DNA from: Clostridia bacterium
GTDB taxonomy: Bacteria > Bacillota > Clostridia > Oscillospirales > QAMX01
Length of the DNA stretch: 32,822 bases
NCBI GenBank assembly: GCA_017441705.1
Contig: JAFRWU010000023.1
Span: 1-32,822 of the forward strand
Reading direction: 5' to 3'
The notes under the pieces are model-generated. The model had not been told where the DNA came from and did not search any database. It worked only from the letters and a program-made list of their open reading frames with translations. The position numbers and the translations under genes were made by a program. This document shows positions 4,066 to 19,446 of this stretch, piece after piece; the first letter of the stretch is position 1, and the number at the start of each line of letters is the position of its first letter.

Positions 4066-4418
4066 TTCGCTCCCTCGCTTTTCTCCGGAGCTCTCCGGCA
4101 GTGCAGGTATTCGGCTTCGTCGCAGCCGCCGTAGGCGGGCGTGCAGGGGGACGGCGTTTCCTTCGTCAGAGAGAGAAGGGACGCCGCCATGTCTTCGGCG
4201 GCGGCGTGGTCGATCACGTAATGCACGTGATATCCGCGCTTTTCGCCGGCGATCAGTCCGGCTTCGCGCATCAGCTTCAGATGCTGGGACACGGCCGATT
4301 CGCTGATCCCCAGCTTGCGCGCCAGCGCCCCGACGCAGTAACCCCGCTGCAGCAAAAGCCTATAGATCCGCATGCGCGTCTCGTCGCCGAGCGCGCGGCA
4401 GAGCGTGACGAGCTCCAT
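4059..4418 (-). CDS. ArsR-family winged-helix repressor
   Basis: A 119-residue DNA-binding protein, probably the repressor of its own operon with the ABC exporter. The N-terminal part reads as a classic ArsR fold: ALGDETRMRIYRLLL, then helix-turn-helix ALARKLGISESAVSQHLKLM (about residues 31-50) and wing EKRGYHVHYVID. The usual metal motif ELCVCDL is replaced by GYCVGAL, with only one cysteine. The C-terminal tail carries three cysteines in CTPAYGGCDEAEYLHC, plus a final Cys, which could form a different metal or thiol sensor site (inference). Start at 4418 is fixed by an AAGGAGG ribosome site just upstream. It shares seven bases with the transporter start. It is divergent from the PdxA-like gene, with its own promoter at 4461-4489. 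Confidence 0.92.
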   Translation of the reverse strand: MELVTLCRALGDETRMRIYRLLLQRGYCVGALARKLGISESAVSQHLKLMREAGLIAGEKRGYHVHYVIDHAAAEDMAASLLSLTKETPSPCTPAYGGCDEAEYLHCRRAPEKSEGAKC

Positions 4419-4460
4419 TCCCGCTTCGCCTCCTTTTTTCTTCCGGTTCGATCGAAAGAC

Positions 4461-4489
4461 AGTATACCACCGGAATCTGATTCAGTCAA
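4461..4489 (-). promoter_or_regulatory. Promoter of the arsR-ABC operon with operator-like palindrome
   Basis: On the minus strand, -35 TTGACT (4484-4489) and -10 TATACT (4461-4466) are separated by 17 bp. The spacer holds the palindrome GAATC-T-GATTC (4473-4483). Its position is what an ArsR autorepressor would need to block RNA polymerase; the binding itself is inference. Confidence 0.75.
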
Positions 4490-4528
4490 TACTTCATCGG
4501 ATCGAAGCGTTCCCCTCCGGAATGCGTC

Positions 4529-4557
4529 TTGTTTTTTCGGGGCGGATATGCTATCAT
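4529..4557 (+). promoter_or_regulatory. Promoter of the PdxA-like/kinase/araD operon
   Basis: -35 TTGTTT (4529-4534), 17-bp spacer, -10 TATCAT (4552-4557). It lies 28 bp before the GTG start and is divergent from the arsR promoter. Confidence 0.65.
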
Positions 4558-4584
4558 ATTTTCGGAAAAGGGAGGGGGAAAAGC

Positions 4585-5184
4585 GTGGAAAAGCCCAGAA
4601 TAGCCCTGCTTTCCGGCGATCCCGCGGGGATCGGGCCGCGCCTTGGCGCGAAGCTTCTGAAAAAGCGCGCGGCGGATTTTTCTCCGGTCGTCGTGGGAAA
4701 CGAGAGGATCCATACCGCGGCCCTTTCCCGTCTGGCGCCGGATCTGATCGATCTTTTTCCGGTTTACGACGTCCCGGCGGGGTTTTTGGTGCGGGGCGAA
4801 AGATCGGCCGAGGGCGGCCGGATGCAGCTTCAGGCCCTGGGAAAGGCCGCGCATCTTCTCCTGGAGGGACGGGTGGACGCGATCCTGATCACCGGCTTCG
4901 ATCCGGAGTCTGTCTCGCTTTACGATCCGCTGCTCCCGGACGATCTGGCTTACGTAAAAAAAGCCTTTCCGGGCCGGAAGATCGCGCGCGCGTTTTATCT
5001 TTCCGGCAGTCCCGTGACTCTGTATGAAGGTCTTCCGGCCCCTCTGGCAATCAGCGCCGCAGGCCCCCGCTACGGGGAAGAGGAGACCCGGCCGGAGGAC
5101 GAGAAGGCGACGGAGGACGCGCTCGCCTTTCTGCTTTCGCTCCGGAAGGCAGCGCCCGGAGAAGAGCGACCGCAATCCCCTTGA
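4585..5184 (+). CDS. Short PdxA-like protein (4-hydroxythreonine-4-phosphate dehydrogenase family, C-terminus absent)
   Basis: A 199-residue protein whose start, KPRIALLSGDPAGIGPRLGA, matches the conserved N-terminus of PdxA dehydrogenases. LLEGRVDAILITGFD corresponds to the usual nucleotide-side strand 'G.vDAivTaP'. PdxA proteins are normally about 330 residues and use three histidines for the catalytic metal. Here the TAPINK-like segment and the later histidine region are missing, and no continuation is found in any frame before the next gene. GTG at 4585 is chosen because GGGAGGGG lies just upstream and the family similarity begins there; the frame is open further left but without similarity. 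It is first in an operon with a sugar kinase and AraD. Normal dehydrogenase activity looks unlikely. It could be a reduced regulator, a partial subunit or a decaying gene. Confidence 0.7.
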   Translation: MEKPRIALLSGDPAGIGPRLGAKLLKKRAADFSPVVVGNERIHTAALSRLAPDLIDLFPVYDVPAGFLVRGERSAEGGRMQLQALGKAAHLLLEGRVDAILITGFDPESVSLYDPLLPDDLAYVKKAFPGRKIARAFYLSGSPVTLYEGLPAPLAISAAGPRYGEEETRPEDEKATEDALAFLLSLRKAAPGEERPQSP

Positions 5185-5201
5185 TCTGAAACAGGAAAGC
5201 A

Positions 5202-5240
5202 CGGCGCTTCGCGCGCCGGAAACAAGCCGCCTCCGGCGGC
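5202..5240 (+). other. Two GC-rich hairpins between the PdxA-like and kinase genes
   Basis: Stem CGGCGC/GCGCCG (5202-5218) is followed by GCCGCC-tcc-GGCGGC (5226-5240), ending seven bases before the GGGAGG ribosome site of the kinase. There is no T-tract, so these are more likely mRNA-processing, stability or translation elements than terminators. Confidence 0.5.
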
Positions 5241-5264
5241 GGAAAAGGGAGGAAGGACCTCATC

Positions 5265-6869
5265 ATGACCTTTGAAGAAAACGTGAAGACGATCCGGGAG
5301 GGCAAAGCGATCCTCGGCCTGGAAATGGGCAGCACCCGCGTCAAGGCGGTCCTGATCGGAGAGGATCACACTCCGCTGGCCAGCGGCAGCTCCGACTGGG
5401 AAAACAAACTGGAAAACGGAATCTGGACCTACTCGCTGGAGGACGTGAAGAAGGCGGTGCAGGAAAGCTATCAGACCCTGAAGGAAAACGTCATCGACCT
5501 TTTCGGGGTCAAGATCGGCCGCATCGCCGCCATGGGCTTTTCCGGCATGATGCACGGCTATCTGCCCTTTGACGGGGACGGCCGTCAGCTCGCGCCCTTC
5601 CGCACGTGGCGCAACACCATGACCGAGCGGGAGGCCGCCGAGCTTTCGGAGCTTTTCGGCTTCAACGTGCCCCAGAGATGGAGCGTTTCGCACCTTTATC
5701 AGGCGGTGCGCGCCGGAGAAGAGCATACGAAAAGGATCGCCCGCCTCACCACCCTCGCGGGCTATCTGCACTGGATCCTGACCGGGGAGTTCGTCCTCGG
5801 CGTGGGCGAGGCATCCGGCATGTTCCCGGTGAACGAAAAGACCGGCGATTACGACGAGCGCATGATCGCCCTGTTCGATGAAAAGATCCGGGCTTACGGC
5901 ATGCCGTGGCGCGTCCGGGACATCCTGCCCAGGGTCCTTCCCGCCGGCGCGCCGGCCGGCAGGATCACGCCCGCCGGCGCCCTCTTCCTCGATCCCTACG
6001 GCGATCTGGAGGACGGCAGCTTCGTCTGCCCGCCCGAAGGCGACGCGGGCACCGGCATGGCCGCCACCGACAGCGTCACGCCCCGCACCGGCAACGTCAG
6101 CGCCGGGACCAGCATCTTCTCCATGGTGGTGCTGGAAAAACCTCTGAAGAGCTATTATCCCGAGATCGACGTGGTGGCGACGCCCGCCGGGAAGCCGGTG
6201 GCGATGGTCCACTGCAACAACTGCACCTCGGATATCAACGCCTGGGCCGATCTCTTTGCGGAATTCTCCGCCACGGTGGGCAAAAAGGTCACCCGGGGAG
6301 AGGCGCTGGATTCCTTCTTCTATACGGCGGCGGAGGCTGAGGAGGACGCGGGCGGCGTGGTCGCCTATCCCTTCTTCTCGGGCGAGCATATCCTCGGGCT
6401 GGAGGAAGGCCGGCCGATGCTCCTCAGGAGCGCGGACGCCCGCTTCACCTACAGGAACCTGGCGCGCGCCTCGCTCTATTCGGCCATGGCGACCCTGAAG
6501 ATCGGCATGGACATCCTTTCGGAAAAGGAAAACGTGGAAATCGATTCGCTCTTTGGGCACGGAGGATTCTTCAAGGCGAAGGGCGTGGGGCAGAAGCTGA
6601 TGGCCTCGGCGCTTTCCACCCCGGTCACCGTGATGGAGACCGCGGGAGAGGGCGGCCCCTGGGGCATGGCGCTGCTGGCGGCCTACGCGTACCGGAAGGC
6701 GGAGGGAGAAAGCCTGGAAAGCTATCTCCGGGACCGCGTGTTCGCCGGATCGAAGGCGGAGACGGCGGCTCCCGATGAAAAGACCGGCGCGGGCTTTGCC
6801 CGGTATCTCGCCTCTTTCCGGGCGGCGCTTCCCGCCGAGAAAAAGGCCGTGGAGCTTCTGAAGGGGTGA
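5265..6869 (+). CDS. FGGY-family carbohydrate kinase (probable ribulokinase-type partner of AraD)
   Basis: A 534-residue cytoplasmic ATP-dependent sugar kinase. The N-terminal phosphate loop is [15 protein letters not shown] (about residues 18-32), and the sugar-binding strand reads [16 protein letters not shown]. The region [10 protein letters not shown] contains Asp260, at the place of the general-base aspartate of FGGY kinases. The C-terminal ATP-binding part shows [18 protein letters not shown] and [18 protein letters not shown] at 5265 follows GGGAGGAAGGACC. It stands four bases before araD, so the natural inference is phosphorylation of L-ribulose, feeding AraD, but no L-arabinose isomerase gene is present in the window. 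Xylulose or another ketopentose cannot be ruled out from sequence alone. Confidence 0.88.
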
Positions 6870-6873
6870 GGAT

Positions 6874-7575
6874 ATGCTGGAGGAACTGAAAAAGAAGGTT
6901 TGGGAGGCGAACCTCCTTCTCCCGCGATACAATCTGGTGATTTTCACCTGGGGCAACGTCTCGGCCGTCGACCGGGAAACCGGCCTCATGGTCATCAAGC
7001 CGTCGGGCGTGGAGTATGAGGATCTCCGCCCGGAGGATATGGTGACGGTGGATATCCATACCGGCGAAACGGTCGAAGGCGACCTGAACCCCTCCTCCGA
7101 CACCCTGACCCACGCGGCGCTCTACCGCGCCTTCCCCTCGATCGGCGGGGTGGTGCACACCCACTCCCGCTGGGCGACGATCTACGCGCAGGCGGCGAAG
7201 CCCATCCCGGCTCTGGGGACCACCCACGGAGATTATTTCTACGGCGAGATCCCGGTGACGCGGGCGATGACGCCGGAGGAGATCGGCGGCGGCCCCGGCC
7301 GCTACGAGGCGGAGACCGGCAAGGTGATCGTCGAAACCTTCCGGGACAAGGACCCCGACGCGGTGCCCGCGTGTCTGGTGAAAAGCCACGGACCCTTCAT
7401 CTGGGGCAAGGATGCGAAGAACGCGGTGCACAACGCGGTGATCCTGGAGGAGCTCGCCTTCATGGCGTGGCACGACGAGGCGCTCCTGCCCGGGATCGGA
7501 CCGATGCAGAAGGAGCTTCTGGACAAGCACTATCTGCGCAAGCACGGCAAGGACGCCTATTACGGACAGAAATAA
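6874..7575 (+). CDS. araD: L-ribulose-5-phosphate 4-epimerase
   Basis: Converts L-ribulose 5-phosphate to D-xylulose 5-phosphate, sending arabinose-type pentoses into the pentose phosphate pathway. The 233 residues align over the full length with enterobacterial Ara[45 protein letters not shown] and a C-terminal [14 protein letters not shown]. Metal-ligand histidines are at positions 95, 97 and about 172, with Asp120 and a Tyr near 229-230 as the acid/base pair. The related sugar aldolases of this superfamily diverge at the C-terminus, so AraD is a firm assignment. It starts four bases after the kinase stop and the operon ends at the terminator at 7591. Confidence 0.95.
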
Positions 7576-7590
7576 GGATCAAAGAAAAAC

Positions 7591-7627
7591 AAAAACCCGG
7601 CGGCGCACAGCGCCGCCGGGTTTTTCT
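7591..7627 (+). terminator. Bidirectional terminator between araD and the dehydrogenase gene
   Basis: AAAAACCCGGCGGCGC-aca-GCGCCGCCGGGTTTTT: an 11-bp GC stem flanked by A5 and T5, serving the convergent genes on both sides. Confidence 0.92.
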
Positions 7628-7645
7628 CTTTTCCGCCTTGCCGCC

Positions 7646-8647
7646 TTACGCCATGGTTTCCAGCATTTTCATGCTGACTTCCCATTTTGCGGGCTCTCCC
7701 GCGGCGAAGGCGCGGGCTTCTTCGATCATGTATTCGCCCATCCGGAGGCATTCGTCCCCGGCGGAGCCCGCGATGTGCGGGGTCAGGAGGACGTTTTCCA
7801 TCCCGTAGAAGGGATGGTTCGGCAGGGGCGGTTCGGGCATGGTCACGTCAAGAAGGGCGGTGCGGGTGGGGACCTCCTTCAGGGCGCGCACCAGATCGTC
7901 CTCCACCACCTGCGCGCCGCGCCCGGTGTTGAGGAAAAAGGCCGTCGGACGCATCCGGGAGAAAAGAGCGTAATCCAGCATCCCCACCGTGGCGGGAAGG
8001 TTCGCAATGTGATTGGAGATCACCCCGCAGGTCGAAAAGATCTCCTCCAGCGAGGCAGGCCTGACGCCGAATTCCTCCTCGCGCGAACGGTCGAAGAAGG
8101 GATCGTAGTAGAGGACCTCCAGACGGTAGGGCAGAAGGAGCCTCGCGACCTCCCTGCCCACCATGCCGAGGCCCAGAAGCCCGACCTTTTCGCCGTAGTT
8201 TCCCCGGTAGGTGCGGAAGACCCTCAGGGCGGCGGCGCGGTCCCTCTTTTCGGGCAGACAGGCGAAGAAGCCCTTGTTGGCCAGAAGGATCGCCGAAAGG
8301 GCGTACTCGGCCACCGGCACGGCGTTGGCCGCCCAGGCCGAAAAGACCCTGATTCCTTTTTCCAGGAAGGGACGGGCGAAGGCCTGCACCGATCCCGCGC
8401 CGTAAAACACGGCCTTGAGACAGGGCAGCTCTCTTTCGATCTCTTCTTTCGAAAGGGCGGGCATGCCCCAGGTGGAAAAGACGAATTCACAGCCGGCGTA
8501 TTTCCCGCCGGAGGAAGCCAGCTCCTTTCCCGACACGGGATCGGGAGAGAGAAACTCGTACGCGGAGGCGAGAGAGGCGATCCCCCCGTCGCCGTAAACC
8601 TTCCGGATGTTTTCGGGGGCGTCGCACAGAAACAGAGCCTTTTTCAT
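7646..8647 (-). CDS. D-isomer-specific 2-hydroxyacid dehydrogenase family protein
   Basis: A 333-residue NAD(P)-dependent oxidoreductase of the D-lactate/phosphoglycerate/glyoxylate-reductase superfamily. The cofactor fold has GLLGLGMVG (residues 156-164). The catalytic set is complete: Arg243 in NTGRG, Glu272 in MPEPP and His291 in TPHIAGS. The N-terminal substrate domain is divergent, so the substrate is not predicted. ATG at 8647 follows a clear AAGGAGGATCC. It is divergent from an Old-Yellow-Enzyme-like oxidoreductase, sharing a 201-bp intergenic region with an operator-like palindrome, which suggests co-regulation. An assignment to serA is not supported because there is no C-terminal regulatory domain. 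Confidence 0.9.
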   Translation of the reverse strand: MKKALFLCDAPENIRKVYGDGGIASLASAYEFLSPDPVSGKELASSGGKYAGCEFVFSTWGMPALSKEEIERELPCLKAVFYGAGSVQAFARPFLEKGIRVFSAWAANAVPVAEYALSAILLANKGFFACLPEKRDRAAALRVFRTYRGNYGEKVGLLGLGMVGREVARLLLPYRLEVLYYDPFFDRSREEEFGVRPASLEEIFSTCGVISNHIANLPATVGMLDYALFSRMRPTAFFLNTGRGAQVVEDDLVRALKEVPTRTALLDVTMPEPPLPNHPFYGMENVLLTPHIAGSAGDECLRMGEYMIEEARAFAAGEPAKWEVSMKMLETMA

Positions 8648-8664
8648 GACCGGATCCTCCTTTT

Positions 8665-8681
8665 GCCGCCCGGAGGGCGGC
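8665..8681 (-). other. Leader hairpin next to the ribosome site of the dehydrogenase gene
   Basis: GCCGCCC-tcc-GGGCGGC, read on the minus strand, ends four bases before AGGAGG. It could hinder or stabilise the leader; there is no T-tract. Confidence 0.45.
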
Positions 8682-8708
8682 GGCTTTTCCCAAAAAACAG
8701 GTGCAAAT

Positions 8709-8722
8709 CACAAAATATTGTG
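8709..8722. promoter_or_regulatory. Operator-like palindrome in the divergent intergenic region
   Basis: CACAA-AATA-TTGTG is an inverted repeat placed between the two divergent genes, about 25 bp before the plus-strand -10 element and 62 bp before the dehydrogenase start. No regulator gene adjoins it. Confidence 0.4.
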
Positions 8723-8741
8723 CTTTCCCTTTTCACCGACG

Positions 8742-8752
8742 TGTGGTATACT
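8742..8752 (+). promoter_or_regulatory. Extended -10 promoter of the first Old-Yellow-Enzyme gene
   Basis: TGGTATACT (8744-8752) is an extended -10 box; the -35 region (about TTTCCC at 8724) is weak. The leader to the ATG is about 95 bases. Confidence 0.6.
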
Positions 8753-8769
8753 TATTTTTGACCCCGTAT

Positions 8770-8785
8770 CCCTTCCGCGGAAGGG
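8770..8785 (+). other. Perfect 16-bp palindrome in the leader
   Basis: CCCTTCCGCGGAAGGG lies in the leader of the oxidoreductase mRNA. It could be a hairpin or a protein site. No T-tract follows, so it is not a standard terminator. Confidence 0.45.
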
Positions 8786-8848
8786 GACGGGTCTCCCACC
8801 GAAGAGCATACAGGTTTTTCCGACCTTTGTCAAGTGACGGAGTACGAC

Positions 8849-10162
8849 ATGAAACACGAGACCTTTCATTACAGAACCGCGGAGGAATTTCGGGACAAGC
8901 TCCGGGAGCTCGGTCTGGAGATCCCGCTCGCTGAAAACACGGACGCGTTGTTCCGCCCGCTCGGCCGGATCCCGAACCGCATCGTCTTCCAGCCGATGGA
9001 GGGCTGCGACGGCGGGACCGACGGCACCATCGGGGAGCTTTCCCTGCGGCGGTATATCCGCGAGGCCGAGGGCGGCGCGGGGATTCTCTGGTTCGAGGCG
9101 GTGGCCGTCGTCCCGGAGGGGAGAGCCAATCCCCGCCAGCCGTGGCTTACCGAAAAGACGCTCGCAAGCTTCCAGCAGACCGTGGAAAAGGTCAAGGAAG
9201 CCGGCGTGAAAAAGAACGGATACGCCCCCGTCATGATCCTGCAGGCCACGCATTCGGGCCGGTATTCCCGGCCGGAAGGTACGTCCGCCCCGATCATCGC
9301 CTATAACAATCCGCTTTTTGAAAAGGACGCGCCGATCTCCGCCGACCGGATCGCGAGCGACGGGTATCTGGATTCGCTTCCGGAATACTACGGAAGAACG
9401 GCGGCGCTCGCCGAAAAGGCGGGGTTTGACGGCGTGGATATCAAATGCTGTCACCGGTATCTCCTGAGCGAGCTGCTTTCGGCCTACAACCGTCCCGGGA
9501 AATACGGCGGAAGCCTGGAAAACCGGGCGCGGCTGCTTCTCGAGGGGATCGACGCGGCGAACGCCGCGACGGGCCGGGATTTCATCAAGACCTCCAGACT
9601 CAATCTTTACGACGCCTTCCCCTATCCCTTCGGCTTCGGAACAGACCTGCGGGAGGGAAGCGCGAAAAGGGACGCCGGGGAGCTTTTCGCTCTGGTCTCC
9701 CGGATGAAGGAGCGCGGCGTCCGCCTTCTCAACACCTCCATGGGAAACCCCTACGTGAATCCTCACGTGAACCGTCCTTACGATCTGGGCGGCTACGTTC
9801 CCGACGAGCATCCGCTCGAAGGCGTGGCGCGCATGATCGCCGGCGTAAAAGAGCTGCAGGAGGCGTTCCCCGATCTTCTGACGGTCGCCTCGGGACTTAC
9901 CTATCTGCGCGGATTCGCCTTCCCGGCCGCGGCGGCCCTGGTGGAAAGCGGAAGCGCGGCTTTTGCCGGCTTCGGCCGGGAAAGCTTCGCCTACCCGGAT
10001 TTTCCGAACGATCTCAAAAAGGGAGAACTCGACCGGAAAAAGCTCTGCGTCGCCTGCTCGAAATGCACCGAACTGATGCGCGCGGGCTCGGTGACCGGAT
10101 GCGTGCTGCAGGATAAGGAGATCTATCTCCCCCTGTACCGCGCCCGGTGCATGAAGAAATGA
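8849..10162 (+). CDS. Old Yellow Enzyme-family flavin oxidoreductase (NADH:flavin oxidoreductase), paralogue 1
   Basis: A 437-residue FMN TIM-barrel protein related to the N-terminal half of 2,4-dienoyl-CoA reductase. The start of the barrel has NRIVFQPMEG, a later strand IKCCHRYLLSELLS and the conserved YGGSLENRARLL (about residues 219-230). In relatives the central motif is HGYL; here it is HRYL. The C-terminus has cysteines 400, 403, 406 and 418 (C-x2-C-x2-C-x11-C), which resembles the Fe-S site of FadH but is one residue shorter between the second and third cysteines. There is no following NAD(P)H/FAD domain, so an external electron donor is implied. ATG at 8849 is preferred over GTG 8834 because GGAG lies six bases upstream. 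The substrate is unknown; the paralogue lies at 15177. Confidence 0.87.
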   Translation: MKHETFHYRTAEEFRDKLRELGLEIPLAENTDALFRPLGRIPNRIVFQPMEGCDGGTDGTIGELSLRRYIREAEGGAGILWFEAVAVVPEGRANPRQPWLTEKTLASFQQTVEKVKEAGVKKNGYAPVMILQATHSGRYSRPEGTSAPIIAYNNPLFEKDAPISADRIASDGYLDSLPEYYGRTAALAEKAGFDGVDIKCCHRYLLSELLSAYNRPGKYGGSLENRARLLLEGIDAANAATGRDFIKTSRLNLYDAFPYPFGFGTDLREGSAKRDAGELFALVSRMKERGVRLLNTSMGNPYVNPHVNRPYDLGGYVPDEHPLEGVARMIAGVKELQEAFPDLLTVASGLTYLRGFAFPAAAALVESGSAAFAGFGRESFAYPDFPNDLKKGELDRKKLCVACSKCTELMRAGSVTGCVLQDKEIYLPLYRARCMKK

Positions 10163-10164
10163 AA

Positions 10165-10200
10165 CCGTATCCCGGCGAAAAAGCACGGGAACGGATACGG
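10165..10200 (+). other. Hairpin between the oxidoreductase and foldase genes
   Basis: CCGTATCCCG (10165-10174) pairs with CGGG and GGATACGG (to 10200) around an A-rich loop. No T-run follows; the AAAGG ribosome site of the next gene starts at once. It may be a weak terminator or a processing hairpin. Confidence 0.45.
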
Positions 10201-10217
10201 AAAGGATGACAGCCGAT

Positions 10218-11225
10218 ATGAAAGGGATCCTCAAAAGAGCGGCGGCGGTCGCGCTCGCGCTTGCGCTGGCGGTCGCGCTCCTCGCCTCCTGCTCGGGATC
10301 GCGCACCCTCCTCACGGTGGACGGCGCCGCCGTCACCGAGGAGATCATGAATTATTACGTCTATATTTCCACCTCCATGCTGGAGCTTTACAATCGCGGC
10401 GCCCTGGATTACTCCGCCGAGATCGAAGAATTCGGCGGAAGGAAACTCGGCGACGTGATCAAGGAGCTTGCCTACCAGCAGATCCTGAACGATTATGCCG
10501 GCCTGAGCCTCGCCAAGCAGTACGACCTGGAATTCGACGAGGAGGAAATGACCCTGATCGACAGCCAGGTGGAGAAGGTCATCGCCGGCATCGGCGACAA
10601 CAGCACCTACCGGGATTTCCTGAACACCGTGAAAATATCCGACAAGACCTACCGCCAGATGCTCCGGAATCAGATGCTTCTGGACAAAGTCAAGGAATAT
10701 CTGGTGGCGGACGACGGTCCGATGGCTCTGACCGAGGAAGAACTCGCCGCGGCCACCGAAACCTTCCGGGAGGATTTCGTCAACGTGGAATACGTCGTTC
10801 TTTCCCGGCTGGATCTCACCAACGGCGAGGAGCTGGATTCCGCGACCATCGCAGCCCAGCGTGAGCTGGCGCAGAAGGTGCGCGCGCTCGCGCTCAACGG
10901 CAGCAATTTCCACAAGCTGATCGACAAATACAGCGCGAACAAGCCCAGCGACGGCTACAGCGCCTACGTCAAAAACGACGCCAGCGAAGGACTTCCCGAA
11001 GAATTCCTCCGGGCGGCCTTCTCCCTGAAGGACGGCGAGATCAGCAATGTGATCTCCACGGAATACGGGTTCTACGTCATCAAGCGCCTGCCCTACGACG
11101 AACTTCTCCCCACGGTGGTGAAAAAGACCGCCCAAGAGGAAAAATATGAGAAGCTGCTCAAAGAGGTACAGGACCGCATGACGGTGGTCACCACGGCCGC
11201 CTTCAACGCCTACGAGGTCAAATGA
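10218..11225 (+). CDS. PrsA/SurA-like peptidyl-prolyl isomerase lipoprotein
   Basis: A 335-residue exported foldase, probably anchored to the outer face of the cytoplasmic membrane. The N-terminus MKGILKRAAA with a long Ala/Leu/Val stretch ends in the lipobox LASC, giving a lipid-modified cysteine. A SurA-N-like helical region follows (about residues 40-170). The parvulin-type part is near VEYVVLSR and FHKLIDKYSANKPSDGYSAYV to GEISNVISTEYGFYVIKRL. ATG at 10218 is chosen over 10206 because the signal peptide starts there and the AAAGG at 10201-10205 is too close to the earlier ATG. Its stop overlaps the next start by four bases (ATGA). The parvulin domain is divergent, so it could be a holdase rather than an active isomerase. 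Confidence 0.85.
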   Translation: MKGILKRAAAVALALALAVALLASCSGSRTLLTVDGAAVTEEIMNYYVYISTSMLELYNRGALDYSAEIEEFGGRKLGDVIKELAYQQILNDYAGLSLAKQYDLEFDEEEMTLIDSQVEKVIAGIGDNSTYRDFLNTVKISDKTYRQMLRNQMLLDKVKEYLVADDGPMALTEEELAAATETFREDFVNVEYVVLSRLDLTNGEELDSATIAAQRELAQKVRALALNGSNFHKLIDKYSANKPSDGYSAYVKNDASEGLPEEFLRAAFSLKDGEISNVISTEYGFYVIKRLPYDELLPTVVKKTAQEEKYEKLLKEVQDRMTVVTTAAFNAYEVK

Positions 11226-13383: not shown

Positions 13384-15102
13384 ATGGCATATCTGGACGA
13401 ATATCAAAAATGGCTTGAATATCCCGCGCTGGACCCGGCCTTGAAAGAGGAACTGGAGGCGATGAAGGGGAACGAGAAGGCGATCGAGGACGCCTTTTTC
13501 GCGCCGCTCTCCTTCGGGACGGCGGGGCTTCGCGGCGTCATGGGCGCCGGGATCAACCGCATGAACCGCTACACGGTGGCGCAGGCCACCAAAGGCCTTT
13601 CGGAATACATCCTTTCCTTCGGGAAGGAGACGGCGGAAAGAGGCTGCGCCGTCTGTTACGACAGCCGCAACAACTCCGCCCTTTTCTCGGAGATCGTCGC
13701 CCGCGTTCTGGCGCACGACGGGATCCGGGTGTTCCTCTTCGACGAGCTGCGCCCCACTCCCGAGCTTTCCTTCATCATCCGCCGGAACGGATACGTCGCC
13801 GGCGTCAACGTCACCGCCAGCCATAATCCCAAGGAGTACAACGGCTACAAGGTCTACTGGGAGGACGGCGCTCAGCTTTCGGACGCCGTCGCCGGCGCAG
13901 TCTCCGAAAGGATCCGCGCGACCGATCTTTTCGGCGTGGAGCTCGCCGATTTTGAGGAGGCGAAAAGGAACGGCCTGATCACGATCCTCGGAAAAGAAAC
14001 GGATGAGGCGTTCTACGAGGCCATTCTCAAAACCTCCATCAATCCCGGCGCGATCCGGGAGGCGGCTCCCGGCTTCAAGGTCATCTACACGCCCTTCCAC
14101 GGCGCAGGCTACCGGGAGGTGCCCGAGATCCTGAGGCGTCTCGGCCAGGAATCCTTCTATCCGGTGAAGGAGCAGATGGTCGTGGACGGCAATTTCCCCA
14201 CGGTGAAAAGCCCCAACCCGGAGAATAAAGAAGGCTTCGCCATCGCCATCGACATGGCGAAGAAGATGAACGTGGATCTGATCGTCGGCACCGACCCCGA
14301 CGCCGACCGGCTCGGCGCGGTGGTCCGGAACGCCGAAGGCGAATACGTCAGCCTCACCGGGAACCAGATGGGCGTCCTGCTTCTGGACTACATCATCCGC
14401 GCCCGGAAGGAAAACGGCACCCTTTCGGATAAGGCCGTGATGATCACCTCCTGCGTTTCCACCCGCATGGCCGAAGCGGTCGCCGACGCGGGCGGCGTCG
14501 AGACCGATTACTGCTTCACCGGCTTCCGCTTCATCGCGGAAAGGATGAACAAGGCCGTTTCCGAGGGCAAGCAGTTCCTCCTGGGGTTTGAGGAATCCTG
14601 CGGCTATCTCATGGGCGATTACGCCCGCGACAAGGATGCGGTGGGCGCCGCGGCCGTCGCGATCGAAATGGCGGCGTATTATCACCTCCGCGGCAAGACT
14701 CTCTACGACGTCCTGATCGAATGCTACCGGAAATATGGATACTATTCCGAAACGACTATGAATCTGGTGATGCCCGGCGTGGACGGCCTGGAAAGGATCC
14801 GCGGCCTGATGAAATCGCTGCGGGAGGAGCCTCCGGCCGATATTGCCGGCAGAGCCGTCGCCGCCGTGAGCGATCACCTGGCGGGGACCCGGAAGAGCGC
14901 GAGCGGGACCGAAGCGCTTCCCGCCCATCTCACCGGATCCAACGTTCTCGGCTTTATGCTGGCGGACGGATCGGAGGTCCTGGTGCGTCCCTCGGGCACC
15001 GAGCCGAAGGTCAAGGTCTACGTCCTGACCCGCGGCAAAAGCGCCGAAGAGGCCGAAAAGACGAAGAGCGAGCTCACCGAAGCCTGCAAGGGCTGGATCT
15101 GA
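13384..15102 (+). CDS. pgcA: Phosphoglucomutase/phosphomannomutase (alpha-D-phosphohexomutase)
   Basis: A 572-residue enzyme that moves phosphate between C6 and C1 of glucose (or mannose), supplying glucose-1-phosphate for UDP-glucose. The motifs are in family order: GTAGLRGVMGAGINRMN, the phosphoserine loop TASHNPKEYNGYK with Ser146, the metal loop DPDADR (304-309), the sugar-binding loop GFEESCGY and the C-terminal phosphate-binding RPSGTEPKVKVY. The length and loop sequences are those of the Firmicutes PgcA type rather than the shorter GlmM type. It is the second gene of the galE operon and a perfect hairpin follows. Confidence 0.93.
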   Translation: MAYLDEYQKWLEYPALDPALKEELEAMKGNEKAIEDAFFAPLSFGTAGLRGVMGAGINRMNRYTVAQATKGLSEYILSFGKETAERGCAVCYDSRNNSALFSEIVARVLAHDGIRVFLFDELRPTPELSFIIRRNGYVAGVNVTASHNPKEYNGYKVYWEDGAQLSDAVAGAVSERIRATDLFGVELADFEEAKRNGLITILGKETDEAFYEAILKTSINPGAIREAAPGFKVIYTPFHGAGYREVPEILRRLGQESFYPVKEQMVVDGNFPTVKSPNPENKEGFAIAIDMAKKMNVDLIVGTDPDADRLGAVVRNAEGEYVSLTGNQMGVLLLDYIIRARKENGTLSDKAVMITSCVSTRMAEAVADAGGVETDYCFTGFRFIAERMNKAVSEGKQFLLGFEESCGYLMGDYARDKDAVGAAAVAIEMAAYYHLRGKTLYDVLIECYRKYGYYSETTMNLVMPGVDGLERIRGLMKSLREEPPADIAGRAVAAVSDHLAGTRKSASGTEALPAHLTGSNVLGFMLADGSEVLVRPSGTEPKVKVYVLTRGKSAEEAEKTKSELTEACKGWI

Positions 15103-15114
15103 GAAGCAAAAGAC

Positions 15115-15152
15115 GCGGGCGGAAAAACGACAGCCGTTTTTCCGCCCGCTTT
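15115..15152 (+). terminator. Terminator-like hairpin after phosphoglucomutase
   Basis: A perfect 15-bp stem (GCGGGCGGAAAAACG at 15115-15129 and complement at 15135-15149) with a 5-base loop and a short TTT tail. The next gene starts 27 bases later, so some readthrough is possible. Confidence 0.75.
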
Positions 15153-15176
15153 CGCGATCCGGGAAAGGGGAAAAGC

Positions 15177-16436
15177 GTGAAACGAAACTGGTTTGAGTAT
15201 CATTCGCCGGAGGAAATCCTGGCGGATGCGAAGCGAAACGGCGTTCATCTTCCGCTGGCGAAAGACGCCGGGGTCCTTTGGGAAAAGCTGACCTTCGGAG
15301 GCGTGACGCTTCAGAACCGGATCGGGATCGCTCCGATGGAGGGGGTGGACAGCCTTCCCTCCGGCGCGCCGTCGGAGCTGACCTTCCGCCGTTACCGCCG
15401 CTTCGCCCGGGGCGGGGCGGGGCTTATCTGGCTGGAGGCCACGGCGCCGTCGCCCGCGGGCAGAAGCCACGGGAAGCAGCTGATGCTGACCGAAGAAACG
15501 CTCGGCGATTTTCAGCGCCTTTCGGACGCTGTGCGCGAGGAAGGAATGAAGAAAAACGGCTTTTCGCCCTATCTGGTGATCCAGGCTCACGTTGCCGGGC
15601 GAATGGCCGAAAAACGGCCGCTGGTCGGCCGGTTTTTCCCCGAACGCGACAGGAAGCTCCGGGGGTTTGACGGAAAGCTCGCGACCGACGACGAACTGAA
15701 AAGGACCGAAGAGGAGCTCGGCGCTTTCGCCTTGCTTGCCAAAAAAGCCGGTTTCGACGCGGTGGAGATCAAATGCTGCCACGGCTATCTTCTGGGAGAG
15801 CTGCTTTCGGCCTACGAGCGCCCCGGTCCCTACGGCGGTTCCTTTGAAAACAGGACCCGCCTGTTCCGGAACGCCGTGAAGGCTGCGAAAGCCTTTGAGG
15901 ACGATGCTTTTCTCGTCACCGCCCGGCTCGGGATCTACGACGGGCTGCCCCGTCCCTACGGCTTCGGCGTCGGGCCGGACGGCGGGATCGAACCCGATAT
16001 GACCGAGCCGGTCCGTCTGGTCAGAGAGCTCCGGGAGGAAGGCATGCCCTTCCTGAACCTCTCTCTGGGCCTGACTCTCACCGCCGCGGCGAAACAGAAT
16101 CCGATCCGGGATCTCGCGCGGATCGCCGACCTGACGGGGCAAATCAAAAAGGCCGTGCCGGAGATGACCGTATCGGGCACCGCCTTCTCGTATTTCCGGC
16201 AGTTCGCGGGGCTCCACGCCGCGGGATGCGTGGAGGAGGGCGTGTGCGACCACGTGCTTTTCGGCCGGATGGCCTTTGCCGACCCGGATTTCCCGCTGGA
16301 GCTGCGCGGCGCGGGGACGATCGACCCGGAAAAGACCTGCCTCACCTGCGACGGATGCGGCCGTCTCATCCGGGGCAGAAGACCCACCGGCTGCGTCGTG
16401 CGGGACAGGGAGACCTACCCGGTCCGGGAGGATTGA
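15177..16436 (+). CDS. Old Yellow Enzyme-family flavin oxidoreductase, paralogue 2
   Basis: A 419-residue FMN TIM-barrel protein, the second member of this family in the window. It has NRIGIAPMEG, IKCCHGYLLGELLSAYERP and YGGSFENRTRL. The C-terminal cysteines 388, 391, 394 and 406 have exactly the same C-x2-C-x2-C-x11-C spacing as the copy at 8849, and again there is no fused FAD/NAD domain. The GTG start at 15177 follows GGGAAAGGGGAAAAGC. Unlike paralogue 1 it keeps HGYL. The gene is followed directly by the A7 tract and half-stem of a terminator that has been split by an inserted element (16451-18302). Substrate unknown; an enoate or dienoyl reductase role is only family-based inference. Confidence 0.87.
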   Translation: MKRNWFEYHSPEEILADAKRNGVHLPLAKDAGVLWEKLTFGGVTLQNRIGIAPMEGVDSLPSGAPSELTFRRYRRFARGGAGLIWLEATAPSPAGRSHGKQLMLTEETLGDFQRLSDAVREEGMKKNGFSPYLVIQAHVAGRMAEKRPLVGRFFPERDRKLRGFDGKLATDDELKRTEEELGAFALLAKKAGFDAVEIKCCHGYLLGELLSAYERPGPYGGSFENRTRLFRNAVKAAKAFEDDAFLVTARLGIYDGLPRPYGFGVGPDGGIEPDMTEPVRLVRELREEGMPFLNLSLGLTLTAAAKQNPIRDLARIADLTGQIKKAVPEMTVSGTAFSYFRQFAGLHAAGCVEEGVCDHVLFGRMAFADPDFPLELRGAGTIDPEKTCLTCDGCGRLIRGRRPTGCVVRDRETYPVRED

Positions 16437-16450
16437 GCCCGCCGGGCCAT

Positions 16451-16496
16451 AAAAAAAGGAGGCGCCTTCAAAGCACACTCCCCGTAAGACAGTAAT
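16451..16496 (+). other. Left attachment site (attL) of an integrated element
   Basis: The outer half is the host terminator arm: A7, GGAGGCG, CCTTC (16451-16469). The shared core is AAAG (16470-16473). The inner half ends in CCCCGTAAGACAGTAAT (16480-16496), which is the inverse of the right end at 18261-18275. Together with 18261-18302 it rebuilds two palindromic sites, as expected for attL of a serine recombinase. Confidence 0.7.
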
Positions 16497-16531
16497 TCAA
16501 GAAAAGCATTGAAAAACAGCATCTGTCTTAC
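16484..16531. repeat. Inverted repeat GTAAGACAG / CTGTCTTAC at the left end of the element
   Basis: GTAAGACAG (16484-16492) and its exact inverse CTGTCTTAC (16523-16531) are 30 bases apart. A further inverse copy is in the right end (18265-18273). They may be recombinase or accessory-factor binding sites. Confidence 0.55.
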
Positions 16532-16569
16532 AGGATTGGGAATCAACGCAAACCTTTTATTTTGAACAC

Positions 16570-16608
16570 GACAGCCGCCCGGTTTGATCCGCGCGGCTGT
16601 CCGTTTTT
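16570..16608 (+). terminator. Terminator inside the left end of the element
   Basis: GACAGCCGC (16570-16578) pairs with GCGGCTGTC (16593-16601), followed by CGTTTTTT. It reads on the plus strand, so it would stop transcripts coming from the oxidoreductase gene, replacing the terminator broken by the insertion. Confidence 0.8.
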
Positions 16609-16628
16609 TGAAATGGGGGATTTCTATC

Positions 16629-17714
16629 TTATGATACTCCCGATTCGAGTATTTCTATTCTCGGGACATCACAGTCTATCTCCATCAATGCCCCGGTAGG
16701 AAGTATAGTCATAGGAGTCCGGTGAATGTAATCCACATTTTCCAATATGACCAAATCCGGTCTGTGTACTTCCTTACACATAACCTTTATGATTGTTTCC
16801 TCATTGTCATCATCCAAAGGGCCTGTTATCACAGCTTTCGCCTTATCAAATGCTCCGGCCGCAGCAAATGCCCGAAGTTCATGTAATCCCGCTAATTTAC
16901 TGCCGTAAACACTTCCGTGTTCCAACGCAATAATGGAATCTTCCCAAATATCGGAACCCGGAAAATACTTCGTTCCCATGATCTGCCAAAGAGGGCCTCC
17001 GCAGACCGCGATAACATGGCCTCTGACTTTTCCCGATCCCTGCAATACTTTGTAGCCGGTTCCAGGCGTCCAGGGAATCATATCTTTCGGGTCCTCAATC
17101 TCATCATTATCCAAAAAGCGTTCATATTGCACTTCTTTCTGTCCCTCTCTGATTGTGTATGTGGTATTCCAATCAATAGGTGCAGTCTTTTCCGCTGGTT
17201 TGATCTCACCTATTACCTCATTTGAAAACAATGTCCGTCTGATTGCCTCTTCCGTATACTCATCAAGTTTTCCGGGCTGTGCGAGCGGGGTCAGAACAGA
17301 GGGACCGTAATAAGCACGGACGCCTGCATATGCAAAAACGGCCATCCATGTAGCAATATCGGAAAAACCCATAAATACCTTGGGATGATCATGAATGACC
17401 TGCGGATCGATATACGGAAGAACACGATAGGAATCATCTCCGCCCAAATTACAGATAATACCTTTGATGGAATCATTTTTCAAAGCCCACATCAAATCCT
17501 CGGCTCTTTTCTCGGGATGCTCATAAAGGTACTCGCTTCCACGAAGCGCATTAGGAGTTTCAACCACTCTTACACGAAAGATTTTTTCAAATCTTCTTTT
17601 GCCAAGCAGATACCTGGGGAGCATATCTTCATCTCCGGCACGACCACTTGAAATCGAAAGAAATGCTATGGTATCGCCCTCGTTCAATTTTGATGGGATG
17701 ATCAGTTTTTTCAT
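16629..17714 (-). CDS. S66-family serine peptidase (MccF / LD-carboxypeptidase-like)
   Basis: A 361-residue cytoplasmic peptidase of the S66 family. Members either trim tetrapeptides in murein recycling (LdcA) or cleave microcin-C-like peptide-nucleotides and give self-immunity (MccF). The nucleophile elbow is GFSD with Ser118, following LGGDDSYRVLPYID (residues 90-103). Glu265 in IIALEHG and His331 in DYIHRTP complete a plausible triad, and TILPTGALMEID is the usual C-terminal motif. The ATG at 17714 follows AAGGAGGAGG. Base and codon use are far more A+T-rich than in neighbouring genes. It is the only intact gene inside the integrated element, so it is probably transferred cargo. A resistance role is inference; the sequence does not distinguish it firmly from murein recycling. 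Confidence 0.9.
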   Translation of the reverse strand: MKKLIIPSKLNEGDTIAFLSISSGRAGDEDMLPRYLLGKRRFEKIFRVRVVETPNALRGSEYLYEHPEKRAEDLMWALKNDSIKGIICNLGGDDSYRVLPYIDPQVIHDHPKVFMGFSDIATWMAVFAYAGVRAYYGPSVLTPLAQPGKLDEYTEEAIRRTLFSNEVIGEIKPAEKTAPIDWNTTYTIREGQKEVQYERFLDNDEIEDPKDMIPWTPGTGYKVLQGSGKVRGHVIAVCGGPLWQIMGTKYFPGSDIWEDSIIALEHGSVYGSKLAGLHELRAFAAAGAFDKAKAVITGPLDDDNEETIIKVMCKEVHRPDLVILENVDYIHRTPMTILPTGALMEIDCDVPRIEILESGVS

Positions 17715-17783
17715 TACGCCTCCTCCTTAATTTTCAAGCTGACGGTCTGTATAGTTGGAAGAGCCACTAACTAATATAGTTAT

Positions 17784-17812
17784 AGTGTACTTAATGCAGA
17801 CTCATAATTCAA
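17784..17812 (-). promoter_or_regulatory. Promoter of the S66 peptidase gene
   Basis: On the minus strand, -35 TTGAAT (17807-17812), 17-bp spacer, -10 TACACT (17784-17789). The first 30-bp duplicated unit begins inside the -35 box. Confidence 0.55.
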
Positions 17813-17869
17813 GAGTGTTTCTGTGAACATACAAAAAAACAAGAGTGTTTCTGTGAACATACAAAAAAA
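17810..17869 (+). repeat. Perfect tandem duplication, 2 x 30 bp
   Basis: The unit starting CAAGAGTGTTTCTGTGAACA and ending in a C and seven A's occurs at 17810-17839 and again, without any difference, at 17840-17869. Identity implies a recent duplication. Confidence 0.95.
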
Positions 17870-17911
17870 CTGCGAATTGGCAAATCCGGTTGAGCCGCTT
17901 TTTTCGCAGTT
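17868..17911. other. Inverted repeat AACTGCGAA / TTCGCAGTT
   Basis: A 9-bp perfect inverted repeat (17868-17876 and 17903-17911) encloses 26 bases, including a CGGTTGAGCCG sub-hairpin. It lies in the non-coding part upstream of the mobC remnant. It could be a terminator or part of a transfer origin; the latter is only suggested by position. Confidence 0.4.
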
Positions 17912-17922
17912 CAAAATATTTA

Positions 17923-17948
17923 CAACTCATAGGTTCAACTCATAGGTT
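17923..17948 (+). repeat. Perfect tandem duplication, 2 x 13 bp
   Basis: CAACTCATAGGTT occurs at 17923-17935 and 17936-17948, directly joined. The second copy overlaps the -35 box of the promoter at 17947. Confidence 0.95.
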
Positions 17949-17974
17949 GAAAATCCGCACAATTCGTGTACAAT
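17947..17974 (+). promoter_or_regulatory. Promoter ahead of the mobC remnant
   Basis: -35 TTGAAA (17947-17952), 16-bp spacer, -10 TACAAT (17969-17974). A GGGAGG ribosome site follows at about 17996-18001. Confidence 0.6.
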
Positions 17975-18011
17975 GAGTGTGTACACCCGGAATTCGGGAG
18001 GACCCGTGGAA

Positions 18012-18071
18012 ATGGCAGAGAAGAAAAACCGACTGCGGCCGACACAGCTTCATTTCTATGTAAACGATTGA
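18012..18071 (+). pseudogene. N-terminal remnant resembling a MobC mobilisation protein
   Basis: From an ATG with a GGGAGG ribosome site, 19 codons read MAEKKNRLRPTQLHFYVND and then stop. This resembles the basic start and first strand (Q-L-x-F-Y-V) of MobC/ribbon-helix-helix relaxosome proteins of Firmicutes mobilisable elements, which are normally over 100 residues. The reading breaks where similarity to a recombinase C-terminus begins (about 18061-18070), so an internal deletion joined two genes out of frame. The match rests on a short segment and is therefore uncertain. Confidence 0.45.
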
Positions 18072-18228
18072 AAGCCTCACTCCCTACGCACGGAGAGAAC
18101 TTGTAAAGGCTGTCTATGCGGGGGCTCCGGACAAATCCGGCGGCAAGAGGAAGCAGAGGATTCACATCGCCTATGAGTTCATCGGCTTCATCCAGGTTGA
18201 GGAACTGATGAACGCGAAAGAAGCATGA
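18067..18228 (+). pseudogene. C-terminal remnant of a large serine recombinase
   Basis: 53 codons, open from 18067 to the TGA at 18226-18228, begin IESLTPYARRELVKAVYAGA and continue with PDKSGGKRKQRIHIAYEFIG and FIQVEELMNAKEA. This matches the usual end of transposon-type large serine recombinases (the DUF4368-like tail, LTP..RELI..I.VHAP.KS.GKR.Q.I.I.Y.FIG). There is an in-frame TAA just upstream (18061-18063), and the catalytic and DNA-binding domains are absent. Its position, about 30 bases inside the right att site, is where such recombinase genes normally sit. Confidence 0.7.
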
Positions 18229-18248
18229 CCGAAATCATGCTTCTTTCG
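18215..18248 (+). terminator. Hairpin overlapping the recombinase stop codon
   Basis: A perfect 14-bp stem CGAAAGAAGCATGA (18215-18228) with its complement at 18235-18248 and loop CCGAAA. The stem includes the stop codon. The A/T-rich outer arms can act in both directions. Confidence 0.7.
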
Positions 18249-18260
18249 AGAAAATCGCAT

Positions 18261-18302
18261 ATTACTGTCTTACGGAGGGTGCCCTAAAGGACGCCTCCTT
18301 TT
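18261..18302 (+). other. Right attachment site (attR) of the integrated element
   Basis: The inner half ATTACTGTCTTACGG (18261-18275) is the exact inverse of 16482-16496. The core AAAG is at 18286-18289. The outer half CGCCTCCTTTT (18292-18302) is the exact inverse of 16454-16464 and is the T-tract arm of the split host terminator. Confidence 0.7.
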
Positions 18303-18411: not shown

Positions 18412-19446
18412 ATGGAACTGGGAAAGAAAATCAGGACGCTGCGCCTCAAGGCGGGCTTTACGCAGGAGCAGCTCGCGGAAAAGCTCGGGATCGGACCGCA
18501 GGCGGTTTCCAAATGGGAAAACGCGGCGGCGATGCCGGACGTCGCCGCCCTTCCGGTCCTGGCGGAGGTTTTCGGCGTCACGGTCGACGATCTTTTCGAC
18601 CTGACCGTGGAGCAGCGCTTCCGCCGCATCGAAAACCGCATGGATATCGAAGAGGATCTGCCGCAGGACGTGTTCCTGGAGTACGAGGAATTCCTGAAAG
18701 AACGGGCCGGGGAGGAACCGTACGAAAAACGCGCGACGGAGCTGCTCGCCTATCTCTACTGGCACAAGATGAACGCCTTTTCCCGAAAGGCCGGCCGGTA
18801 CGCGCGGGACGCGGTGCGCCGCGCGCCCGGGGAAAAGACGTGCTATTGGATGCTCGCGCAGGCGGAAAGGCACGCCGTGTGGGACTGGAACGTCTCGAAT
18901 CACCACAAGGCCATCGGTTTCTACCGGGAGATCGTGGAAAGCGATCCGGGCGCGAAGCTGCCCTACCTCTATCTCCTCGACAATCTGCTCGCGGATCACC
19001 GGGCGGAGGAGGCCGAAGCGGTTCTCGCGCGCTACGCCGCCCTGCCGGACGTGAATCCGGTCCACGTCGGGATCTACCGGGCGTATATCGCCCTGGCGCG
19101 CTTTGACGAACCCGCGGCGGACAGGATCGTCGAGGAACTGGAGAAAGAGCATCCGGACGATTTCGGCTGTCTTTTCGAGTCCGCCCAGTATTACGCCCGC
19201 AAATGCGATTACGACAGGGCGATCGCCCTCTACGAACGCTCCTTCGAGCGGGAGCCGCGCCGCCCGCGGTTCCAGGACGAGCTGATGGCGATCGCGGACA
19301 TCCACGAGATCCGGGGCGATTTCCGGAAGGCAGCGGCGGCGTACGAAAGGATCGTCGACCTGCTCCGGAACGAGTGGGGGATGACCGAGGAGACCGAACT
19401 GAAGGACGCGGAAAAGGAAAGAGACCGGCTGCTCGCCAAAGCATGA
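18412..19446 (+). CDS. XRE-family transcriptional regulator with TPR-like C-terminal domain
   Basis: A 344-residue protein. Residues 1-62 form a Cro/CI-type helix-turn-helix (IRTLRLKAGFTQEQLAEKLGIGPQAVSKWEN, ending LAEVFGVTVDDLF). The rest is helical, with repeated aromatic/alanine pairs such as YARKCDYDRAIALYERSFE and IRGDFRKAAAAYERIVDLL, as in tetratricopeptide repeats, which often bind peptides or partner proteins. The ATG at 18412 follows AAAGGAGG. Base composition is that of the host, so the gene lies outside the adjoining mobile element. Before the insertion it would have been directly downstream of the oxidoreductase terminator. No target operon is evident nearby. Confidence 0.87.
   Translation: MELGKKIRTLRLKAGFTQEQLAEKLGIGPQAVSKWENAAAMPDVAALPVLAEVFGVTVDDLFDLTVEQRFRRIENRMDIEEDLPQDVFLEYEEFLKERAGEEPYEKRATELLAYLYWHKMNAFSRKAGRYARDAVRRAPGEKTCYWMLAQAERHAVWDWNVSNHHKAIGFYREIVESDPGAKLPYLYLLDNLLADHRAEEAEAVLARYAALPDVNPVHVGIYRAYIALARFDEPAADRIVEELEKEHPDDFGCLFESAQYYARKCDYDRAIALYERSFEREPRRPRFQDELMAIADIHEIRGDFRKAAAAYERIVDLLRNEWGMTEETELKDAEKERDRLLAKA

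Follow-up and report, generated by a model that had tools for sequence, protein, structure and literature searches.

The window analysed here, a stretch of 32,822 nucleotides from a Clostridia bacterium (contig JAFRWU010000023.1), carries an insert of 1816 bp (16472-18287, counting one copy of the core, with core positions taken from the family geometry described below) between a gene for an FMN oxidoreductase (PF00724, Pfam 1.2e-22; 14721-16436) and a gene for an HTH_3/TPR regulator (Pfam 9.4e-16; 18412-19446). Features lie on the forward strand unless stated otherwise. In relatives (L046, L047), a terminator just upstream of the regulator gene is kept and the left neighbour gene changes. The insert holds a cargo gene for an MccF/MccC-like S66 peptidase on the reverse strand (16629-17714), recognised by the N- and C-terminal S66 domains in Pfam and by a match to an MccC family protein in the PDB (5f5x, E 4.6e-71), and, upstream of it, a tandem pair of a 30-nt unit that is 100% identical (17810-17869). 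Two gene remnants complete the inventory. The first encodes the N-terminal 19 residues (MAEKKNRLRPTQLHFYVND) of a mobilization protein that resembles MobC/NikA, followed by a stop codon (18012-18071; Pfam NikA-like/MobC), 89% identical to the MobC start at L116, one of the relatives that share this start with the window. The second comprises the last 54 residues and stop codon of a DUF4368 large serine recombinase (18064-18228; PF14287, E 9.5e-9), at most 70% identical to its intact relatives; the Resolvase and Recombinase domains that those relatives possess are absent from it, only the DUF4368 part being left. Since no more than these 54 residues are retained, we class the window copy merely as the remnant of a large-serine-recombinase element. 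Where relatives are intact, mobC precedes the recombinase gene, and a few dozen nucleotides separate the end of the latter from the right-end motif; given this order, we take the window copy for an integrative mobilizable element that has undergone an internal deletion. Judged by its gene content, the insert is thus an internally deleted element of this kind without an intact recombinase: a later internal deletion would have joined the beginning of mobC to the last part of the recombinase gene, and a fusion of that sort would leave the element incapable of autonomous movement. The att sites appear intact. No transposase was found in the insert, and the window gave no Rfam match, to a group II ribozyme or otherwise. 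A search of plasmids and phages with the insert DNA returned no match, and a search of 295 genomes of the same order with the element end returned the window alone. The exact element end has a single match in IMG/VR (L158), which we rejected as a chance match within a phage gene.

The insert splits the terminator of the oxidoreductase gene. The left half (A7-GGAGGCG-CCTTC, followed by the left copy of an AA core; 16451-16471) corresponds in position to the left flanks of relatives, and the right half (AGGACGCCTCC-T4; 18288-18302) folds with it. When 16451-16473 is joined to 18290-18302, the resulting sequence, AAAAAAAGGAGGCGCCTTCAAAGGACGCCTCCTTTT, is bordered by A7 and T4 and forms a single hairpin of -21.9 kcal/mol with short flanks. 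An earlier sequence-only reading of this DNA had predicted exactly this rebuilt terminator, and had taken the two junctions for attL and attR of a serine-recombinase element lodged within it. The rebuilt sequence is as claimed, and the att assignment now finds support in the recombinase C-terminal remnant (PF14287) of the insert, in intact relatives with full recombinases and the same ends, and in the hairpins that the joined flanks of those relatives rebuild.

The left end arm of the element (AGCACACTCCCCGTAAGACAGTAAT; 16472-16496) is an inverted repeat of the right end arm (ATTACTGTCTTACGGAGGGTGCCCT; 18261-18285), and the two ends form an imperfect inverted repeat of about 42 bp with an 84% match (E 6.8e-4, own genome). 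Joining 18261-18289 to 16474-16496 yields a 52-nt palindrome with 21 of 25 pairs matching around a central AA; both the sequence and the fold (MFE -28.9 kcal/mol) confirm what had been proposed for it, including that this putative attP and the putative attB are two different imperfect palindromes of unlike sequence. Taken alone, the palindrome is statistically borderline, the best 25-nt inverted match in the 2.2-kb region (21/25) being equal to the maximum of 30 shuffles. The main weight therefore comes from relatives that share the ends, their spacing and the core geometry.

We fetched 80 such loci from a species-genome collection, using as the query the full-length recombinase P0001 of a related genome. 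A search for elements with the same ends and an intact recombinase had been suggested beforehand, and it was successful: the 80 relatives carry an intact or near-intact recombinase, and nearly all have a right end of the same kind, (A)CTGTYTTACG or a close variant, in which 13 nt separate TTA from the dinucleotide core. Their left ends mirror the right ends, with 13 nt from the core to TAA. Both ends of the window element obey the 13-nt rule, so that its core must be AA, at 16470-16471 (attL copy) and 18286-18287 (attR copy). The AAAG that the sequence-only reading had considered common to both ends is indeed shared, but the family geometry confines the core to AA and renders the AG coincidental. 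That a dinucleotide core is shared without target duplication holds for the window (AA and AA) and well beyond it, because the core is identical at both ends in 30 out of 30 paired elements, eight of them with a core other than TT (the types being TT, TC, CA, GA and AA), as a 2-bp crossover would predict. These 30 pairs are the set after removal of an artefact pair (L100/L142) whose right end had been read backwards.

What do the target sites of these elements have in common? Recombinases that are at least 90% identical are found between unrelated flanks, and flank sequences differ at every insertion; with PF14287 present and many unrelated target sites for close relatives, the family has the marks of the multi-targeting DUF4368 recombinases. 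Four or more consecutive T within +5 to +26 beyond the core were observed at 69 of 82 right junctions, compared with 217 of 1922 control windows (11.3%), and the median distance from the core to the first T of the run is 12 nt. A few junctions in this set of 82, positioned by automatic motif matching, may be out of register (e.g., L034). An A-run marks the left flank in 27 of 31 cases. When the two flanks of each of the 30 pairs were folded together, matched flanks gave a mean of -16.8 kcal/mol and swapped flanks -6.9 kcal/mol (permutation p < 5e-5), and the true partner was the best of all 30 in 21 cases. Perfect stems of 9 to 20 bp are common among the rebuilt hairpins. The joined flanks at Holdemania massiliensis locus L054 read AAAAAAGCAGCGTGGTT-ATGCATGCGGCTTTTTT. 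The pairs that do not fold (L050, L064, L071, L076, L099, L105 and L109) include a few that probably combine ends of different copies within one genome. From these comparisons, the recombinase clade, with dozens of intact members in other gut bacteria, appears to use intrinsic terminators as its landing sites (attB).

It is conceivable that the recombinase recognises sequence only, namely a TT-like core with an A-tract and a T-tract at set distances, and that terminators merely happen to fit this pattern. The tracts on both sides of most sites agree with such a scheme, as do the TT core and A/T-rich ends reported for one multi-targeting large serine recombinase, and Cp36 works in human cells (Durrant et al., PMC10083194). 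Yet sites in the same DNA that have the A-tract, a TT/TC core and the T-tract at the same distances are mostly not hairpins (84 of 1158), whereas 16 of 22 targets are; when GC-rich arms are also required, the proportions are 11 of 145 and 13 of 17 (p 9e-10). The tract pattern alone is thus insufficient to explain the preference, and we regard recognition by sequence only as possible rather than probable. Alternatively, integration might be broad and only insertions into terminators might persist, since others harm genes. The elements that we observe are necessarily those that persisted, and an insertion between genes should do less harm; selection against gene damage would, however, permit any intergenic spot, and accounts neither for a core placed in the hairpin loop nor for the narrow spacing of the T-tract, so that we hold survivorship to be quite unlikely as the explanation.

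Could the half terminators instead belong to the element ends rather than to the target? The GC-rich ends can in fact pair with a host arm, and hybrid attR hairpins composed of an element arm and a host arm fold mildly better than with shuffled arms (-8.3 vs -7.1). The flanks nevertheless vary from one insertion to the next, while the two flanks of a given element are mutually complementary, and Holdemania relatives have the terminator without the element, which makes this explanation scarcely credible. The inverted repeat at the ends is nearly all that would suggest a DDE transposon, which would have terminal inverted repeats and duplicate a short stretch of the target; this origin can be dismissed, because there is no transposase, because the insert has a DUF4368 recombinase remnant and its intact relatives the recombinase itself, and because the shared core is only 2 bp, varying between elements and identical within each; repeats flanking a transposase with target duplication, the outcome named in advance as refuting a serine-recombinase origin, were accordingly not encountered. 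Chance was likewise rejected as an explanation.

Uninterrupted sites offer a more direct view of the target. Both sister species of Holdemania massiliensis have an unbroken terminator at the homologous place, with a right flank that aligns directly with that of the element site, and in one of them (G417) a single contig carries both flanking genes, separated by about 300 nt without the element. In a congener of the window (G002), an unbroken terminator precedes the orthologous HTH gene and aligns with the joined window flanks. Its left neighbour gene is not the same as that of the window, and the two genes that flank the window insert are found there on different contigs with other neighbours; because the left gene differs and because the right arm predicts the left arm of any hairpin, this comparison is weaker than that in Holdemania. 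Most congeners of the Flavonifractor element host (L072) have an unbroken hairpin of changed sequence at the homologous place. Among 59 related genomes, none had a full joined empty site with the flanking genes of the window, and relatives in Oscillibacter and Negativibacillus had no homologous empty site. The expectation that close relatives would reveal an empty site is thus met by homologous unbroken terminators in Holdemania, G002 and Flavonifractor, but not by the exact predicted junction, the collection containing one genome per species.

Taken together, we read the insert as a decayed integrative mobilizable element that would have integrated conservatively into a terminator loop, and its whole clade as alike in choosing intrinsic terminators for attB, with a probability of about 0.92. 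How might such integration proceed? We envision an element plan consisting of the ends, a MobC/NikA-like gene, a DUF4368 large serine recombinase and variable cargo. In the window, a palindromic attP with an AA core would have recombined conservatively with the loop of the oxidoreductase terminator, which would serve as an attB with the same core, leaving a half-hairpin at each end and no target duplication. The attB common to the clade would comprise an A-tract, a GC stem, a loop with the 2-bp core and, towards the recombinase, a T-tract, in sites that are otherwise unrelated. That the recombinase itself chooses the site and catalyses the reaction between attP and attB is inferred, with no experiment behind it.

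An insertion of this type would deprive the left gene of its T-tract, for which the element provides a substitute terminator about 100 nt inside its left end. The window has such a terminator just inside the left end (16570-16608; MFE -23.8), in place of the T-tract lost to the left gene. Its designation as the element's own terminator in the sequence-only reading is borne out by the family, in which the first 220 nt of the element contain a terminator-like hairpin on the same strand at 27 of 30 left ends, usually some 100 nt from the end. Twenty-five of these hairpins fall below -18 kcal/mol, whereas 25% of random windows contain any such hairpin and 4.9% one with an MFE < -18; the elements being related, the 27 cases partly reflect shared descent. 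A second proposed terminator, at 18215-18248, did not hold up: it is a family-conserved hairpin with a CCGAAA loop that encloses the recombinase stop codon (stem of at least 8 bp in 56 of 57 loci, with 16 distinct arm pairs), has no clean T-run after it and is not an intrinsic terminator. At loci L048-L127, the loop of the stop-codon hairpin is CCGAAA or ACCGAAGC, again without a following T-run. At the right end, the host T-tract would stay in place and the element arm and host arm may pair as a hybrid hairpin, which together with T4 can serve as a right-end terminator. Hybrid attL hairpins fold no better than with shuffled arms, so the general claim that both junctions stay terminators is unsupported. 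The likely gain for the element would be an intergenic insertion without loss of transcriptional insulation, although preserved insulation is itself an inference. One might go further and suppose that the recombinase reads a foldable DNA shape, such as complementary arms or a cruciform, rather than sequence, and that the family has evolved a terminator-replacement kit which silences the insertion for the host; we consider this extension doubtful.

Multi-targeting large serine recombinases are under development for genome engineering, and the basis of their target choice is open. DUF4368 has been described as a mark of such recombinases, one example having a TT core and A/T-rich ends, which was read as relaxed specificity (Durrant et al. 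2022, PMC10083194), and a 2026 paper on MTI/MNGE treats DUF4368 recombinases as non-specific tools (PMC13137831). The window clade resembles these enzymes in its Resolvase, Recombinase, Zn ribbon and DUF4368 domains, in its many attB sites, in a common TT core and in an A/T-rich outer attB; it differs in that the relaxed specificity is replaced by a putative attB that is a terminator hairpin split in its loop. The word 'terminator' is absent from the main texts of PMC10083194 and PMC13137831, and we found no report of terminator targeting by DUF4368 recombinases in open-access papers; most subscription papers and all supplementary files were outside this scope, so that terminator targeting may have been described elsewhere before. 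Group IIC introns are the known mobile elements with intrinsic terminators as insertion sites (Robart et al. 2007, cited in PMC7161350). They share this type of target with the window clade but are RNA-based retroelements, employ a reverse transcriptase and insert after the terminator stem-loop, whereas a DNA recombinase would split the loop here. The clade would thus be a DNA-recombinase counterpart to group IIC introns. A terminator rule would allow its integration sites to be predicted from genome sequence, and would amount to a natural safe-harbour principle, in which insertion is intergenic and the neighbours remain insulated.

The core of Tn4451 is GA and hence not that of the window (AA), and most relatives of the window have TT. 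Elements of the Tn4451/TnpX group are small and mobilizable, and use a TnpX-like large serine recombinase with a 2-bp core and low site specificity (PMC5704250, PMC3158075), all of which they share with the window family; for the target site, PMC3158075 states only that it is 2 bp. A limit of the terminator rule is set by L183, a Tn4451-like element whose recombinase is 45% identical to the window family and which lies in coding sequence, where the overlap is 2 bp and a hairpin is absent; its empty site is present in pK29 (L186). It has TnpV/TnpW. The window family differs from it in its ends and in having terminators as targets. Terminator targeting is therefore a property of the clade of the window and not of all DUF4368 recombinases. 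The element at L183 (about 3020-10720 in CP123681.1) is 7.7 kb long, carries aac(6')-aph(2'') and interrupts a gene of a Salmonella IncHI2 plasmid.

Two further observations concern the ends. In the window, a second copy of the end motif (CTGTCTTACAGG; 16523-16534), complementary to the end motif, lies 30 nt inside the left end. At L085, two identical left ends with identical left flanks (positions 3960 and 6317) lie 2.4 kb apart, perhaps as a result of tandem duplication or as an effect of assembly.
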